A DNA stretch of 35,306 nucleotides from Actinomycetes bacterium (GCA_021803215.1 JAJZLV010000045.1:1-35306), one strand, 5' to 3'. Shown: positions 16,738 to 31,514, counted from the stretch's first letter. A program made the numbers and translations. The notes: generated by a model not told the origin, from the letters alone.

Positions 16738-16950
16738 CTATACAGTGTAGGACATGCCGACAAGCACGCTTCCGTCCAGCGGACCGTTGCGACGCCACTT
16801 GCCGATCATGGCCTCGCTCACGCCGAGCTTCGCGGCGACCCCGCGATTGGCGAGACCTTTGGCGCAGTTGATGACGATCCTGGCCTTCATGGCCATCGCC
16901 TGGGCGCTCTTTCGCCGGTTGGCCAGGCGCTCGAGCACGGGGCGTTCCAT
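16738..16950 (-). pseudogene. IS630-family transposase, N-terminal fragment
   Basis: The 70-residue frame has the IS630/Tc1-like N-terminal helix-turn-helix: RPVLERLANRRKSAQAMAMKARIVINCAKGL then VAAKLGVSEAMIGKWRR. This usually leads into the linker and DDE catalytic domain, but the frame ends after GPLDGSVLVGMSYTV, and no catalytic residues follow. On its 5' side it abuts the IS110 fragment directly. It is clearly a truncated remnant without activity. Confidence 0.75.
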
Positions 16951-17365
16951 GCCCGAGGGGGTAGCGGGGGTGGCCGCCCTTCACGAGTTTCTCACCGCCC
17001 ATGCCGACGACCCGACCGGGGTGGCCGTCGGCATCGAGACCGATCGGGGGATGTGGGTGACGTCGCTGGTGGCCGCCGGCTACGCCGTGTACGCGCTCAA
17101 CCCGCTGTCGGTAGCCCGCTACCGGGAACGCCACTCGATCTCGGGGACGAAGTCCGACCCTGGTGACGCCGCCATCCTGGCCGAGGTGGTGCGCACCGAC
17201 CGCCACCACCACCGCACCGTCTCCGGCGACTCGCCCGAGGCCCAGGCGGTCAAGGTGCTCGCCCGGGCCCATCAGCGCCTCATCTGGGACCGCCAGCGCC
17301 AGGTCAACCGGGCCCGCTCGGTGCTGCTGGAGTTCTTCCCCGCCGCGCCCGAAGCCTTCGGCACC
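16951..17365 (+). pseudogene. IS110-family transposase, internal fragment
   Basis: From about 16951 the plus-strand frame reads GVAVGIETDRGMWVTSLVAAGY, then VYALNPLSVARYRERHSISGTKSDPGDAAILAEVVRTDRHHHR, then LARAHQRLIWDRQRQVNRARSVLLEFFPA. These are the conserved N-terminal (DEDD, RuvC-like) parts of IS110 transposases; the Asp residues of KSDPGDA are visible. The first catalytic Asp region (GIDWA-type) at the start and the whole C-terminal transposase_20 domain are missing. It ends near FPAAPEAFG and sequence then diverges, so it is truncated at both ends. Confidence 0.8.
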
Positions 17366-17378
17366 GAGAGATGGTGCA

Positions 17379-17407
17379 GGCGGAGGGGGTGAACCATCCC
17401 CTCCGCC
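17379..17407. terminator. Perfect 10-bp stem-loop downstream of the beta-helix gene
   Basis: GGCGGAGGGG (17379-17388) and CCCCTCCGCC (17398-17407) are exact complements around a 9-nt loop GTGAACCAT. The hairpin lies about 100 bp past the end of the beta-helix gene (minus) and just past the IS110 fragment (plus). It may terminate the former or be a residual element end. No T-tract is present. Confidence 0.4.
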
Positions 17408-27052: not shown

Positions 27053-27115
27053 GGCGGACTGCGAAGCGGAGCTGCTTGTTGGCGGACCGCGAAGCGGAGC
27101 TACTTCTTGGCTGAC
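27053..27115. repeat. 28-bp tandem repeat at the nfuA 3' end
   Basis: Units 27053-27080 and 27081-27108 differ at three bases; GGCTGAC (27109-27115) resembles the start of a third. The second unit contains the nfuA stop codon and its last two Lys codons. The repeat core GCGAAGCGGAGCT is shared exactly. Confidence 0.8.
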
Positions 27116-27732
27116 TGGTAGTACGGGTTGTCGCCCGCCGCGTGGTCGGTCACGTCGAGGACCGAGGTCACCTCGGGCACGGCCTCTTGGATGGCGACCG
27201 TGATCCCCTGGCTCAAGGTGACCGCCGCCAGCCCGCAGCCCTGACAGCCGCCGAGCATCCGCACGTAGGCGGTCCCCTCGCTGTAGGCGACGAGGTCGGC
27301 GAAGCCGCCGTGCATGGCGATCTGGGGGTTCACCTCGTTCTCGAGGATCTCGAGGATGCGCTTTGCGACCGGGTCGGAGAGGTCGCTGCCGGGCAGGTCG
27401 CTCACGGGCTTGGCGGCGGGCGGGACGTTCGGGTTCAGCATGACGAGGCCCTGCTCGCCCCCGTGGTCGCCGACGTCCAAGGTGGCGCCGGCCAGCTTGT
27501 CGATCGAGCTCTCGGCCACGACCACCGAGAGGCCGTCCGAGGTGACGACGGCGTCACCCGCTCCGGCGTCGGAGATCTGCTGGAACCACATGTCATAGGT
27601 GTAAGAGCCGTTGGCGCTGCCGCTCACCTCGAGCCAGAGGGCGAGCGACTCGGGGTCGGACTCCCCGGCGCGGATCTGCTTCACCATCTCGAGGGCGGGC
27701 TCGGTCACCCGCAAGAGCTCTTCTTCGGCCAC
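27100..27732 (-). CDS. nfuA: NfuA-like iron-sulfur cluster carrier
   Basis: The 210-aa protein has two parts. Residues 1-105 resemble the degenerate A-type (HesB-like) domain of NfuA, lacking its Cys ligands (ALWLEVSG...YTYDMWFQ). Residues 120-200 form the Nfu domain with IAMHGGFADLV and the cluster-binding GGCQGCG (Cys163, Cys166). Such proteins bind a [4Fe-4S] cluster between two monomers and pass it to targets. It is transcribed away from the radical SAM cassette, with 55 bp between the starts, and such a carrier could supply that Fe-S enzyme. This link is inferred from position only. A tandem repeat overlaps its last codons. Confidence 0.88.
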   Translation of the reverse strand: MAEEELLRVTEPALEMVKQIRAGESDPESLALWLEVSGSANGSYTYDMWFQQISDAGAGDAVVTSDGLSVVVAESSIDKLAGATLDVGDHGGEQGLVMLNPNVPPAAKPVSDLPGSDLSDPVAKRILEILENEVNPQIAMHGGFADLVAYSEGTAYVRMLGGCQGCGLAAVTLSQGITVAIQEAVPEVTSVLDVTDHAAGDNPYYQSAKK

Positions 27733-27787: not shown

Positions 27788-29044
27788 GTGGAGACGGCCC
27801 TCATCATCCTGCCGGCTGGCACCTACCGGGCGGCCGAGTACCTGCAGGCCGCCCGGCGCCTCGGCGTCGACGTCGTGACGGCCTCGGACGCGCCGCAGGC
27901 CTTCAGCCGGAAGATGGGCGACCACTTCCTCCGCCTCCCCCTCGAGGACCCGGTCGAGTCGGCCCGCCTGATCGTCGCCCACGACGACAGGCTCCACCTC
28001 GACGCCGTCGTGGCGGTGGACGACCAGGGCCTGCTCGTCGCCTCTCTGGCGGCCGAGGCCCTCTCATTGCGCCACAGCCCGCCGGCGGCCGTCCGGATGA
28101 CCCGCGACAAGGCCTCGATGCGCCTGGCCTTCTCCCTCGCCGGGGTCTCGCAGCCCCGCTTCCTCGTCGTCTCGGGCAAGAACCCGGAGACGGCGGGCGA
28201 GGCGGCGGGCGAGCTCGGGCTGCCGGTCGTCGTGAAGCCGGTGGGGCTCTCGGGCAGCCGCGGCGTCATCCGGGCCGACTCGCCCCTCGAAGCCGTCGCG
28301 GCAGCCCGGCGGGCGAGCGCCATCGCCGAGGCGGCCGGCGAGCCGGCCGGCTCCTCTCTTCTCGTCGAGTCCTTCGTGCCCGGGCCCGAGATCGCCCTCG
28401 AGGGCGTCCTCTCGGAGGCCAACCTCGAGGTGGTGACGATCTTCGACAAGCCCGAGCCGCTCGAAGGGCCCTACTTCGAGGAGACCTACTACGTGACCCC
28501 GAGCCGCCTCGGGGCCCGGGCGGCCCGAGAGGTCATCGAGGAGGTGCGCCGGGCGGTCGGTGCCATCGGGCTGCGGGAGGGTCCGGTCCACGCCGAGCTG
28601 CGGCTGCCGGACGGCGGGCGCCCGGTCGTGATCGAGGTGGCGGCCCGCACCATCGGAGGGCGTTGCTCGAAGGCGCTCTTGCTCGCGAAGGGCGCCAGCC
28701 TCGAGGAGCTGATCCTCGCCCGCGCCCTCGGGAGGAAGGAGCCGGCCGCCGCCCTCGCCGGACCGGCGGGGGTGCTCATGATCCCGATCCCGCTCTCGGG
28801 CCGCCTGCTCGGGGTCCACCACCAGGACGAGGCCCGGGCGGTCCGCAACGTCACCGGGGTGGAGGTCACGGTCCCGCGGGGCCAGCCGGTGAGGGCCCTG
28901 CCAGAGGCCGACCGCTACCTCGGCTTCGTCTTCGCAGCCGCTCCGACCCGCCAGGAGGTCGAAGCGGCCCTCCGTGAGGCGAACGACCTGCTGCAAGTCG
29001 AGATCGCTCCGAGCGACCCCGTCCGGCCCGGTACCGTGGCCTGA
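27788..29044 (+). CDS. ATP-grasp family ligase, substrate unknown
   Basis: The 418-aa protein starts METALIILPAGTYRAAEYLQAARRLGVDVV, a pre-ATP-grasp Rossmann-like domain. The ATP-grasp core has MTRDKASMRLAFSLAGVSQPRF, LPVVVKPVGLSGSRGV (Lys150, glycine-rich loop), a carboxylate-rich LVESFVPGPEIALEG and VVIEVAARTIGG near residue 285. In the last motif Ala stands where an Asn often co-ordinates Mg, as in some amino-acid ligases. It resembles carboxylate-amine ligases of the L-amino-acid ligase/BacD type. The GTG start at 27788 is used. The next gene starts immediately after its stop, so a joint pathway with the radical SAM enzyme is likely. The substrate cannot be read from sequence. Confidence 0.85.
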   Translation: METALIILPAGTYRAAEYLQAARRLGVDVVTASDAPQAFSRKMGDHFLRLPLEDPVESARLIVAHDDRLHLDAVVAVDDQGLLVASLAAEALSLRHSPPAAVRMTRDKASMRLAFSLAGVSQPRFLVVSGKNPETAGEAAGELGLPVVVKPVGLSGSRGVIRADSPLEAVAAARRASAIAEAAGEPAGSSLLVESFVPGPEIALEGVLSEANLEVVTIFDKPEPLEGPYFEETYYVTPSRLGARAAREVIEEVRRAVGAIGLREGPVHAELRLPDGGRPVVIEVAARTIGGRCSKALLLAKGASLEELILARALGRKEPAAALAGPAGVLMIPIPLSGRLLGVHHQDEARAVRNVTGVEVTVPRGQPVRALPEADRYLGFVFAAAPTRQEVEAALREANDLLQVEIAPSDPVRPGTVA

Positions 29045-30463
29045 GTGCGGGTCCTCTGCCTTTCCACCTACGAGCTCGGCCAGCAGCCGGTCGGCCTCGG
29101 CGCCGAGGTCGCCCTCCTCGAGGCGGCCGGCCACGAGGTGAGCGCCGCCGACCTCTCCGTCGAGGCCTTCCCGGCCGAGGCGGCCGCCGCGGCCGAGGCG
29201 GTCGTCTTCTCGGTCACGATGCACACCGCCACCGAGCTCTCCTTGCAGGCCGCCCGCCGCATCACCGATCAGTCCGGCAAGCGGCCCTTCGCCTTCCTCG
29301 GTCTTTACGCCCCGGTCCTTGACGGCCACGAGCTCGTGGGCGACCAGGATCTCCTGGCGGCCGGTGAGACCGGTGAGGCGCTCCTCGGCTGGCTCGAGGC
29401 GCTCGAGGCCGGCGCGAGCCGGGCGAGGAGCGGGGTCGAGGTCTCGATCGGGCGCCCCCGGCCGCTCTCGGGGCCGCTGCCGGCCAGGCGGCGCCTTCCT
29501 CCCCTCGAGCGTTACGCCCGCTACCTCGAGAAGGACCGCGCCATCCTCGTGGCGGGCGTCGAGACGACCCGGGGCTGCAACCACAGCTGCCGGCACTGCC
29601 CGGTGGCTGCCATCTACGGCGGGAGGTCGAGAGCGGTCGAGCTCGAGGCCGTCCTGGCCGACGTCGACCAGGCGGTCTCGCTCGGGGCGGGCCACATCAG
29701 CTTTTTGGACCCCGACTTTCTCAACCGGCCCCGCCACGCCATGGCCGTCGCCGCCGGGCTCGCCGCCCGCCACCCCGGCCTCAGCTTCGATGCCACCATC
29801 AAGATCGAGCACCTGAACCGCCACCGCGAGCTCCTCGAGCCGCTCGCCGGCTACGGACTCAGCTTCGTCACCTCGGCCTTCGAGTCGACCGACGACCGGG
29901 TGCTCGCCCTCCTCGACAAGGGCCACACGGCCGCCGGGGCCCGCCAGGCCGTCGCCGCCTGCCGACGGGCCGGGATAGAGATCCGCCCCTCCTGGCTCCC
30001 TTTCAACCCCTGGACCACCCTCTCTTCCCTCGCCTCCCTCCTCGACTTCGCGGCCCGGGCCGACCTCGTGGCGAGCACCGACGCCGTCCAGTACTCGATC
30101 CGCCTCCTCCTGCCGACCGGCTCGCTCCTCTTGCGGGAGCCGGATCCAGTGCTCGAGGCGGCCCTCGGGCCCGAGAGCACCGGCAACAGCAGCTGGCGCC
30201 ACTCCGAGCCGGCCATCGACGCCCTGCAGGCAGAGGTGGCCGCCCTGGTCGCCCGGGAGCCGGCCAGCAGCGACCCGGTCGGCTCCTTCGAGGCCATCTG
30301 GCGGCTGATGGCCAAGGCCGGGGCGCCTTTGCCACGAGAGATCCCGCAGCCCGAAGGCGAGCTCGCCTCCCATCTCGCGGCCGGCGAGCGCCCCCGGCTC
30401 ACCGAGGCCTGGTTCTGCTGCGCCGAGCCGACCGCCGCCCAGCTGGAGGCTGTCTCGGGCTGA
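29045..30463 (+). CDS. CCAEP-tail radical SAM protein
   Basis: The 472-aa protein has a Rossmann-like N-terminal part of the B12-binding type (MRVLCLSTYELGQQPVGLGAEVALLEAAGH...), without an obvious cobalamin DxHxxG motif. The radical SAM motif CNHSCRHC (Cys178, Cys182, Cys185) holds the [4Fe-4S] cluster, followed by the TIM-barrel landmarks SLGAGHISFLDPDFLNRPRHA. Near the C-terminus WFCCAEPT (458-462 CCAEP) matches the tail of the 'CUAEP/CCAEP-tail radical SAM (seleno)protein' family as I recall it, where the first position can be selenocysteine; here it is Cys (codon pair TGCTGC). The GTG start abuts the ATP-grasp stop, and the stop overlaps the next ATG. The reaction is unknown. Confidence 0.85.
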   Translation: MRVLCLSTYELGQQPVGLGAEVALLEAAGHEVSAADLSVEAFPAEAAAAAEAVVFSVTMHTATELSLQAARRITDQSGKRPFAFLGLYAPVLDGHELVGDQDLLAAGETGEALLGWLEALEAGASRARSGVEVSIGRPRPLSGPLPARRRLPPLERYARYLEKDRAILVAGVETTRGCNHSCRHCPVAAIYGGRSRAVELEAVLADVDQAVSLGAGHISFLDPDFLNRPRHAMAVAAGLAARHPGLSFDATIKIEHLNRHRELLEPLAGYGLSFVTSAFESTDDRVLALLDKGHTAAGARQAVAACRRAGIEIRPSWLPFNPWTTLSSLASLLDFAARADLVASTDAVQYSIRLLLPTGSLLLREPDPVLEAALGPESTGNSSWRHSEPAIDALQAEVAALVAREPASSDPVGSFEAIWRLMAKAGAPLPREIPQPEGELASHLAAGERPRLTEAWFCCAEPTAAQLEAVSG

Positions 30464-31221
30464 TGGGCGGGAGGAAGAGGAGCCGGGACGGCGCGCCGGG
30501 CCTGGCGGGCGCCCACGAGTGGGTCTCGTTCGAGGATCCCGACGAGGACCGCACCTGGCTGGTCGACGTGACCTTTCTCGAGAGCAGCTGGGAGTGCATC
30601 TTCGGGTGCGGCTGCCAGGGGGTGCTGACGGGCCCGGCCGAGGAGCTGGCAGAGGGCTGCTGCTCCTACGGGGCGCACTTCACCGGCGAGGCCGACCTCG
30701 CCCGGGTCGAAGAGGCCGCCGGCACGCTCAGCCCGGCCGATTGGCAGTTCCGCTCGAAGGGCCGCCGGAGCGGGGTGGCCAAGCGGGTCGGTGGGGAGCT
30801 CCTCACGCGGCTCGTCGACGGCGCCTGCATCTTCTTGAACCGTCCCGGCTTCGGGGCCGGCCCCGGCTGCGCCCTCCACCGGGCGGCCCTCGAGCGGGGC
30901 GTCGAGCCGCTCGAGCTGAAGCCCGACGTCTGCTGGCAGCTCCCCTTGCGCCGGAGCGAGGAGACCGGGCCGGACGGACATGTCACTACGACGATCGGCG
31001 AGTGGCAGCGGCGCCACTGGGGAGAAGGCGGCCACGAGTTCCACTGGTGGTGCACCGAGGCTCCCGAGGCCTTTCGCGGCGCCCGGCCGGTCTATCTGAG
31101 CCTCAGAGCCGAGATAACGGCCATGTCGAGCCCGGCCGTCTACGAGATGATCGCCTCCTACATCCAGTCCCGGGCCACCAAGGCGGTGCGTCTCCGCCAC
31201 CCGAGCCTGCGGGCTCAGTAG
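30463..31221 (+). CDS. Cysteine-rich protein, YkgJ/UPF0153-like (zinc or iron-sulfur binding)
   Basis: The 252-aa protein is rich in paired Cys: Cys45-Cys49-Cys51 (ECIFGCGC), Cys66-Cys67 (GCCSYG), Cys122 (GACIFLNRPGFGAGPGCALHR, with Cys136) and Cys157 (KPDVCWQLP). The layout, with CIFLNR..., GCALHRAAL and P..CWQLPLR, resembles YkgJ/UPF0153-type CxxxCxxCC zinc/iron chelate proteins. No membrane segment is seen. Its ATG overlaps the radical SAM stop (TGATG), so it is translated with that enzyme and likely acts in the same process. The exact role is unknown; a metal-binding partner or maturation factor is a reasonable inference. Confidence 0.75.
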   Translation: MGGRKRSRDGAPGLAGAHEWVSFEDPDEDRTWLVDVTFLESSWECIFGCGCQGVLTGPAEELAEGCCSYGAHFTGEADLARVEEAAGTLSPADWQFRSKGRRSGVAKRVGGELLTRLVDGACIFLNRPGFGAGPGCALHRAALERGVEPLELKPDVCWQLPLRRSEETGPDGHVTTTIGEWQRRHWGEGGHEFHWWCTEAPEAFRGARPVYLSLRAEITAMSSPAVYEMIASYIQSRATKAVRLRHPSLRAQ

Positions 31222-31514
31222 GTCGAGTTCTCCTCTTCTTCCTCGTCCTCGAGCTCATCTGAGTCGTGCAGGCACCAGGAGGCGTGCTCCTTTTCCGGCT
31301 CGGCCCCGCACTCGGGACACGGCTCTTGGTGTACCTCGAAGGCGCGCTTCAAGCTGCGCGCCTCCTCGAACCGACGGTGTCGTCCCTTCTTCACGAGCCG
31401 CTCCCAGAGGACTGGATCCTGCCCCGGCCAAAGTGCGCCAGGCCGCGGGCTGAGGCGCCTGGCGCCTGGCAGCATACCGCCAGCTAGAGCGACGTGACCC
31501 ACCAGCACCGGCAC
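31215..31514 (-). CDS. Small zinc-ribbon-like protein with acidic tail
   Basis: The frame from GTG 31514 encodes up to 99 aa. The convincing part is the C-terminal 60 residues: a basic helix KKGRHRRFEEARSLKRAFEV, then CPECGAEPEKEHASWCLHDS, a short Cys-based ribbon (three Cys and two His), and an acidic tail DELEDEEEEE. The N-terminal 35 residues look unlike a protein, so the real start may be later. It converges on the cysteine-rich gene and overlaps its end by 7 bp. No family was recognised. Confidence 0.5.
   Translation of the reverse strand: MPVLVGHVALAGGMLPGARRLSPRPGALWPGQDPVLWERLVKKGRHRRFEEARSLKRAFEVHQEPCPECGAEPEKEHASWCLHDSDELEDEEEEENSTY

Follow-up and report, generated by a model that had tools for sequence, protein, structure and literature searches.

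Organization of the locus

The window analysed here is a 35,306-nt stretch of DNA from an Actinomycetes bacterium (GCA_021803215.1, JAJZLV010000045.1:1-35306), part of a 2.64-Mb assembly in 148 contigs whose nearest named relatives are Acidimicrobiales-type metagenome-assembled genomes (MAGs) of Actinomycetota. Between positions 27788 and 31221 it carries three open reading frames (ORFs) on the plus strand, the first two of which, encoding an ATP-grasp ligase and a radical S-adenosylmethionine (SAM) protein with a CCAEP tail, are the main subject of this work. The ligase (27788-29044, 418 aa) is of the L-amino acid ligase type by its Pfam domains and a profile match to BL00235; the radical SAM protein (29045-30463, 472 aa) was identified through the NCBIfam family NF040546 and an AlphaFold2 model; and the third ORF (30463-31221) encodes a Cys-rich protein, weakly DUF3109-like, that is recognized through its homologs. 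Predicted start codons are GTG, GTG and ATG, respectively. The stop codon of the ligase gene (TGA, 29042-29044) directly abuts position 29045, where the radical SAM gene starts, and the stop codon of the latter (30461-30463) overlaps the Cys-rich ATG (30463-30465) as TGATG. This arrangement of a 0-bp gap followed by an overlap, described in the original prediction, is borne out by the sequence. We consider the genes real because of their homology matches (NF040546, E = 9e-136; ATP-grasp_4 and LAL_C2; NifU), the last of them belonging to an NfuA-like iron-sulfur (Fe-S) carrier gene on the minus strand (27100-27732).

A co-inherited ligase and radical SAM gene pair

GTDB contigs were scanned with an alignment of 16 radical SAM orthologs, and the best 80 of 293 loci, those nearest the query, were analysed; genes at these loci were called with our own script and checked by profile searches. 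The genomes are mostly MAGs, and contig breaks affect all presence/absence counts. The ATP-grasp gene lies directly upstream of the radical SAM gene, on the same strand, at 60 of the 73 loci with enough sequence. When a sample of 396 Actinomycetota genomes was searched, the radical SAM gene was found in 24, the ATP-grasp ortholog in 35 and both in 23 (Fisher p = 2e-27), and among 60 relatives of the window genome the corresponding numbers were 32, 33 and 31 (p = 1e-13); these p-values are merely indicative, since the genomes share ancestry. Where no ligase gene was seen to adjoin the radical SAM gene, the ligase was found elsewhere in the genome in 11/13 cases in one search and 12/13 in another (the latter mostly Chloroflexota), or 23/26 overall, and the other genomes in both searches, which served as linked controls, were all positive. 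Distance matrices of the two proteins are correlated (r = 0.78, and 0.60 after regressing out NfuA). Thus the ligase gene and the CCAEP/CUAEP radical SAM gene form a recurrent two-gene core, co-inherited across Actinomycetota and Chloroflexota, and the two enzymes probably make a joint product. The original prediction had placed both in a three-gene cassette with the Cys-rich gene and expected co-occurrence across CCAEP/CUAEP loci; for the ATP-grasp gene that expectation survives (23/24, 31/32 and 23/26) and the pair stands, while the Cys-rich member, treated below, does not. Two records titled as Bifidobacterium breve MAGs (L063 and L098) carry an Acidimicrobiia-type radical SAM locus and look mislabelled; the gene order of L063 matches that of L074.

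All three domains of the ATP-grasp protein (ATPgrasp_N, ATP-grasp_4 and LAL_C2) score above the Pfam gathering thresholds, and a profile of its orthologs (A2) finds the L-amino acid ligase BL00235 (PDB 3VOT) as its best PDB match (E = 3e-63), in an alignment that covers almost the whole length. By sequence, then, the ligase is assigned to the dipeptide-forming type; BL00235 itself makes Met-Gly and Met-Met (PMC6920838). With BL00235 and BacD it shares the order of the ATP-grasp domains, the LAL_C2 domain and the full-length profile match, and differs from them in having a radical SAM partner and in that its substrates are putative. Apparent ATP-grasp fusions with a 235-aa N-terminal domain, called at four loci (L054, L059, L073 and L077), proved to be antisense readings of NfuA and were rejected as a gene-calling artefact.

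The Cys-rich gene is a syntenic bystander

Searches of Pfam and NCBIfam gave no match for the window's Cys-rich protein, and in a homolog the DUF3109 match stays below threshold (24 bits against a cut-off of 33.5). Its orthologs are 55-81% identical and share 8 invariant Cys; comparison of its model (pLDDT 84) with the PDB returned no usable match, which is no proof of a new fold. The gene follows the radical SAM gene at 22 of 76 loci, all in the window lineage, and is found in 58 of the 60 relatives irrespective of the radical SAM gene, which is present in 32 of those 60. Among genomes that have no radical SAM gene, G016 and G032 show NfuA, then shikimate kinase, then Cys-rich, and G056 shows NfuA, an aldo/keto reductase and Cys-rich; NfuA adjoins the Cys-rich gene in G054, and in G003 and G029 a second copy of NfuA does so. 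From this arrangement, the simplest reading is that the pair sits in a slot between two otherwise neighboring genes, NfuA and Cys-rich, and the tight overlap seen in the window is therefore no evidence of a shared pathway. That ligase, radical SAM enzyme and Cys-rich metal-binding protein act jointly would be in keeping with the overlapping junctions in the window and with the identical order at 22 loci. However, the Cys-rich gene occurs almost throughout the order in the absence of the pair, does not adjoin the radical SAM gene at 54 of 76 loci, and keeps company with NfuA in pair-free genomes, so that its half of the expected co-occurrence fails; we regard a joint role of the three as largely refuted already and give it hardly any credence.

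Positions 31215-31394 on the minus strand encode a conserved small protein that contains CPECG and ASWCL motifs and weakly matches a zinc ribbon; its gene adjoins the Cys-rich gene at about 18 loci. Elsewhere in the window, positions 16871-17389 (plus strand) encode the N-terminal part of an IS110-type transposase (PF01548).

The radical SAM protein and its kinship with ArsL

NF040546 is the best NCBIfam match of the window's radical SAM protein and covers its full length (453 bits, E = 9e-136), under the curated cut-off of 500 bits, which orthologs at L060, L103, L237 and other loci pass with 543-738 bits. All of its orthologs likewise fall to NF040546, with whose members the window protein shares its architecture over the full length. 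Since the score falls short of the cut-off while the full-length match and the tail are unambiguous, we classify the protein, on its sequence, as a divergent relative with the NF040546 family tail. The features that define the family, a CX3CX2C motif and a C-terminal C(C/U)AEP motif, are both seen in the sequence and in alignments. The first, GC178-x3-C182-x2-C185, spans residues 178-185 (29576-29599, plus strand) and is invariant in alignments A5 and A7; the second spans residues 458-462 (30416-30430, plus strand) within the C-terminus ..RPRLTEAWFCCAEPTAAQLEAVSG, which ends in WFCCAEP, and its second Cys is replaced by UGA-encoded selenocysteine (Sec) in relatives. Conserved cysteines of the family are limited to the three cluster ligands and the Cys-Cys or Cys-Sec pair of the tail. 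No description of the function or of a partner of NF040546 was found in the literature searched, which did not cover the Haft selenoprotein papers, and neither NF040546 nor CUAEP appears in a 2026 review of prokaryotic selenoproteins.

The second NCBIfam match of the protein is ArsL (NF040542, 212 bits), and NF040546 and ArsL are each other's second-best family. ArsL makes AST-OH by transferring the 3-amino-3-carboxypropyl (ACP) group of SAM to As(III), forming a C-As bond, according to passages in PMC8552651 and in PMC12159101 (the latter on JACS 2024 work). Pseudomonas ArsL and the window protein are 31% identical over 411 aa, that is, end to end, and a joint alignment of 11 sequences has 43 invariant columns, including those of the cluster motif, numerous residues of the barrel and the vicinal C-terminal Cys pair, in which the invariant C458 and C459 align with the CC of ArsL RCCLKC. 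Some ArsL-type loci also have an ATP-grasp neighbor. These sequence comparisons place NF040546-type radical SAM proteins as a sister family of ArsL. Membership in ArsL itself is not reached (212 bits against a cut-off of 450), and we did not file the window family there because tail, spacer and genomic context differ: the tail reads WFC(C/U)AEP and not RCCLKC, about 45 extra residues precede it, Sec variants exist, and the genes lie in a chromosomal housekeeping context with no arsM, arsQ, arsN or arsR neighbors seen.

On plasmids of Pantoea agglomerans (L124, 5476-10219) and Alicyclobacillus (L125, 1902-6738), ArsL-type loci with the RCCLKC tail carry an ATP-grasp gene and a major facilitator superfamily transporter gene beside arsM and may make arsinothricin-like peptides. 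The ATP-grasp protein of the Alicyclobacillus cluster has a sub-threshold LAL_C2 match. ArsL-type clusters thus unite the two kinds of enzyme as well, which speaks for the pathway proposed below.

The AlphaFold2 model of the radical SAM protein (pLDDT 92.4) has a B12-domain-like Rossmann N-terminus, a radical SAM barrel and the C-terminal tail. The N-terminal domain resembles the B12-binding domain PF02310 in modelled fold and matches it below the cut-off in sequence (E = 0.003, 17.8 bits). AprD4 is the closest solved structure (6fd2; Z = 25.7, root-mean-square deviation 3.9, 405 aligned residues), and MgmA, OxsB and TsrM are also among the nearest. As modelled, the fold does not decide between radical SAM chemistries.

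A selenoprotein form in relatives

Tails could be read in 119 radical SAM genes, of which 89 encode W(F/Y)CC(A/S)EP and 30 have ORFs that stop after W(F/Y)C (29 distinct genes, as L121 and L254 hold the identical gene). All 30 stops are TGA, all 30 are followed in frame by AEP, and a hairpin resembling a selenocysteine insertion sequence (SECIS) lies downstream of the UGA in 30/30, consisting of a short stem 15-19 bases downstream with an AGTT-type loop in most. Paired changes occur in the stem (GGACC/GGTCC, GGAGC/GCTCC and CGAGC/GCTCG). The shuffle z-score distinguishes Sec tails from Cys tails (p = 1e-4), which mean folding energy by itself does not (p = 0.37). The statement that CCAEP proteins also occur as selenoproteins thus holds for these relatives; the window's own copy is the Cys form. 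SelB scored above its cut-off in 31/32 UGA-type genomes (in one search, stop-inside flags were counted as UGA-type and not checked case by case) and in 21/28 others including the window genome, so that the UGA form goes with SelB and the Cys form is found both in genomes that have SelB and in genomes that lack it. The SelB-like gene of the window genome exceeds the curated cut-off (G000:C92:16115-17191) despite the Cys-form CCAEP protein.

Thermomicrobium roseum (DSM 5159) carries the selenoprotein form on a megaplasmid (L122, 8440-9876, equal to NC_011961.1, 796591-798027). Its record is annotated to the UGA end and is probably truncated, since an in-frame AEP and a hairpin lie beyond.

Exchange of Cys for Sec suits redox chemistry or H-atom transfer as well as it suits metal binding, and the four solved folds nearest the model likewise favor an enzyme that performs ordinary 5'-deoxyadenosyl radical chemistry on a small substrate, with the tail as H-atom or electron donor or as covalent anchor and the ligase acting before or after. 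We consider this possible but somewhat unlikely: the sequence is clearly closest to ArsL, an enzyme of ACP transfer, and the CC of the tail is common to both.

Iron-sulfur and iron carriers near the pair

The NfuA-like protein has a NifU domain over the cut-off and a degenerate A-type domain below it, and it does not reach TIGR03341 (83 bits against a cut-off of 269). Its divergent placement, already remarked upon in the original prediction, is conserved, with such a gene within 2.5 kb at 51 of the 60 loci with enough sequence. When the ligase and radical SAM genes of Actinomycetota lie apart, NfuA keeps with the ligase (L255, L257, L265 and L266) and DUF169, which is nearby at 26 loci, can accompany the radical SAM gene (L260 and L264). 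The Chloroflexota loci L246-L251 have the genes for radical SAM, ligase, NfuA and DUF169 in rearranged orders. At 18 loci of a second Chloroflexota group, genes for YggX (PF04362) and for a protein of the formyltransferase family (PF00551) lie near the radical SAM gene, and in T. roseum-like genomes these two lie beside the ligase gene. Such repeated association with Fe-S or iron carriers in varied orders is better functional evidence than one conserved order, and NfuA (YggX in one group of Chloroflexota) is a better third partner than the Cys-rich gene. The pair's neighbors belong to the NfuA and YggX families by domain content; they differ in substituting for each other beside the pair, with which their functional link is putative. 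NfuA is not exclusive to the pair, being found in 51 of the 60 relatives and common in the order also where the pair is absent. For DUF169, the profile found no PDB relative by sequence, and a literature search gave nothing usable, merely a nitrate-fitness list, a neighbor list and mis-hits to DUF1697.

A pyruvate dehydrogenase (PDH) E1 gene lies within 3 kb at 17 of 81 loci, 13 of them of the Chloroflexota LipB-LipA-AceE-E2-E3 type and four Acidimicrobiia-type with AceE divergent. In diphthamide formation, radical ACP transfer is followed by ATP-dependent amidation, and by analogy the pair might modify a protein, the target being a lipoyl enzyme, NfuA or DUF169. The gene order in Chloroflexota (NfuA, then ligase, radical SAM, LipB, LipA, AceE, E2 and E3) and the divergent AceE at L101, L114, L116 and L117 would fit, as would the regeneration of the lipoyl synthase cluster by NfuA, for which a passage of PMC8593673 cites its reference 66. 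Still, PDH genes are nearby at just those 17 loci and the ligase resembles ligases of free amino acids rather than RimK-type protein ligases, which makes protein modification quite unlikely. The swapping of NfuA and YggX as neighbors, whose functions both overlap with cellular thiols (a passage of PMC8593673 refers to yggX/gshA work), could instead point to a product that takes the place of mycothiol, a low-molecular-weight thiol or selenol with a supporting role in Fe-S homeostasis. All 60 relatives, whether they have the pair or lack it, carry an MshC-like gene (each scoring below the curated cut-off), which gives no hint of such a replacement; the idea finds no support here and seems very improbable.

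A possible pathway

Our preferred reading, put forward tentatively and at somewhat less than even confidence, is that the two genes form a pathway that first builds a small non-standard amino acid and then couples it to another amino acid. The radical SAM enzyme would move the ACP group of SAM as ArsL does; the group would be captured by a soft atom, such as As, Se, S or some other thiophilic element, on the Cys-Cys or Cys-Sec pair of the tail, with release of methylthioadenosine; and the ligase would then activate the resulting methionine- or glutamate-like amino acid with ATP and form a dipeptide, while clusters might be supplied or repaired by NfuA or, in one group of Chloroflexota, by YggX. 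Methionine is itself an ACP thioether, and BL00235 accepts it in making Met-Gly and Met-Met, so the ligase could plausibly act on an ACP-X amino acid. Near ligase and YggX in two T. roseum-like genomes (L276 and L283, with the formyltransferase gene also there) lie genes that we named by eye as metK, ahcY and mtnA; as circumstantial evidence, methylthioadenosine salvage genes at this place would fit ACP transfer.

Several observations weigh against this two-step pathway. The ligase occurs in the absence of the radical SAM gene in 12 of the 396 sampled genomes, and AprD4 and the cobalamin radical SAM enzymes, the nearest folds to the model, use other chemistry. No ars gene family was found among the recurrent neighbors of the pair, so arsenic itself is not indicated. 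The ATP-grasp proteins of ArsL clusters are distant from the window-type ligase (24% identity), and the parallel between those clusters and the pair may be convergent; a plasmid search with the window's ATP-grasp protein did not retrieve the ArsL-cluster ligases, so a common ancestry of the modules is not established.

The pair is present in most genomes of some lineages and has housekeeping neighbors, which suggests a metabolic or cofactor-like role rather than that of an accessory antibiotic. In its most specific form, which we think unlikely though worth stating, the product would be a widespread non-antibiotic organo-element metabolite, made by placing the ACP group of SAM on As, Se or another soft element held in a Cys-Sec claw and ligating the result to an amino acid, that serves the metabolism of Fe-S and lipoyl enzymes in lineages of Actinomycetota and Chloroflexota.

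Altogether, a radical SAM family named by NCBI gains a co-inherited partner enzyme, a hypothesis for its chemistry derived from ArsL, and recurrent helpers. If the proposed pathway is true, radical ACP transfer would extend beyond diphthamide and arsinothricin, selenocysteine might turn out to hold the substrate of a radical enzyme, and there would be a small-molecule product to seek in two phyla.

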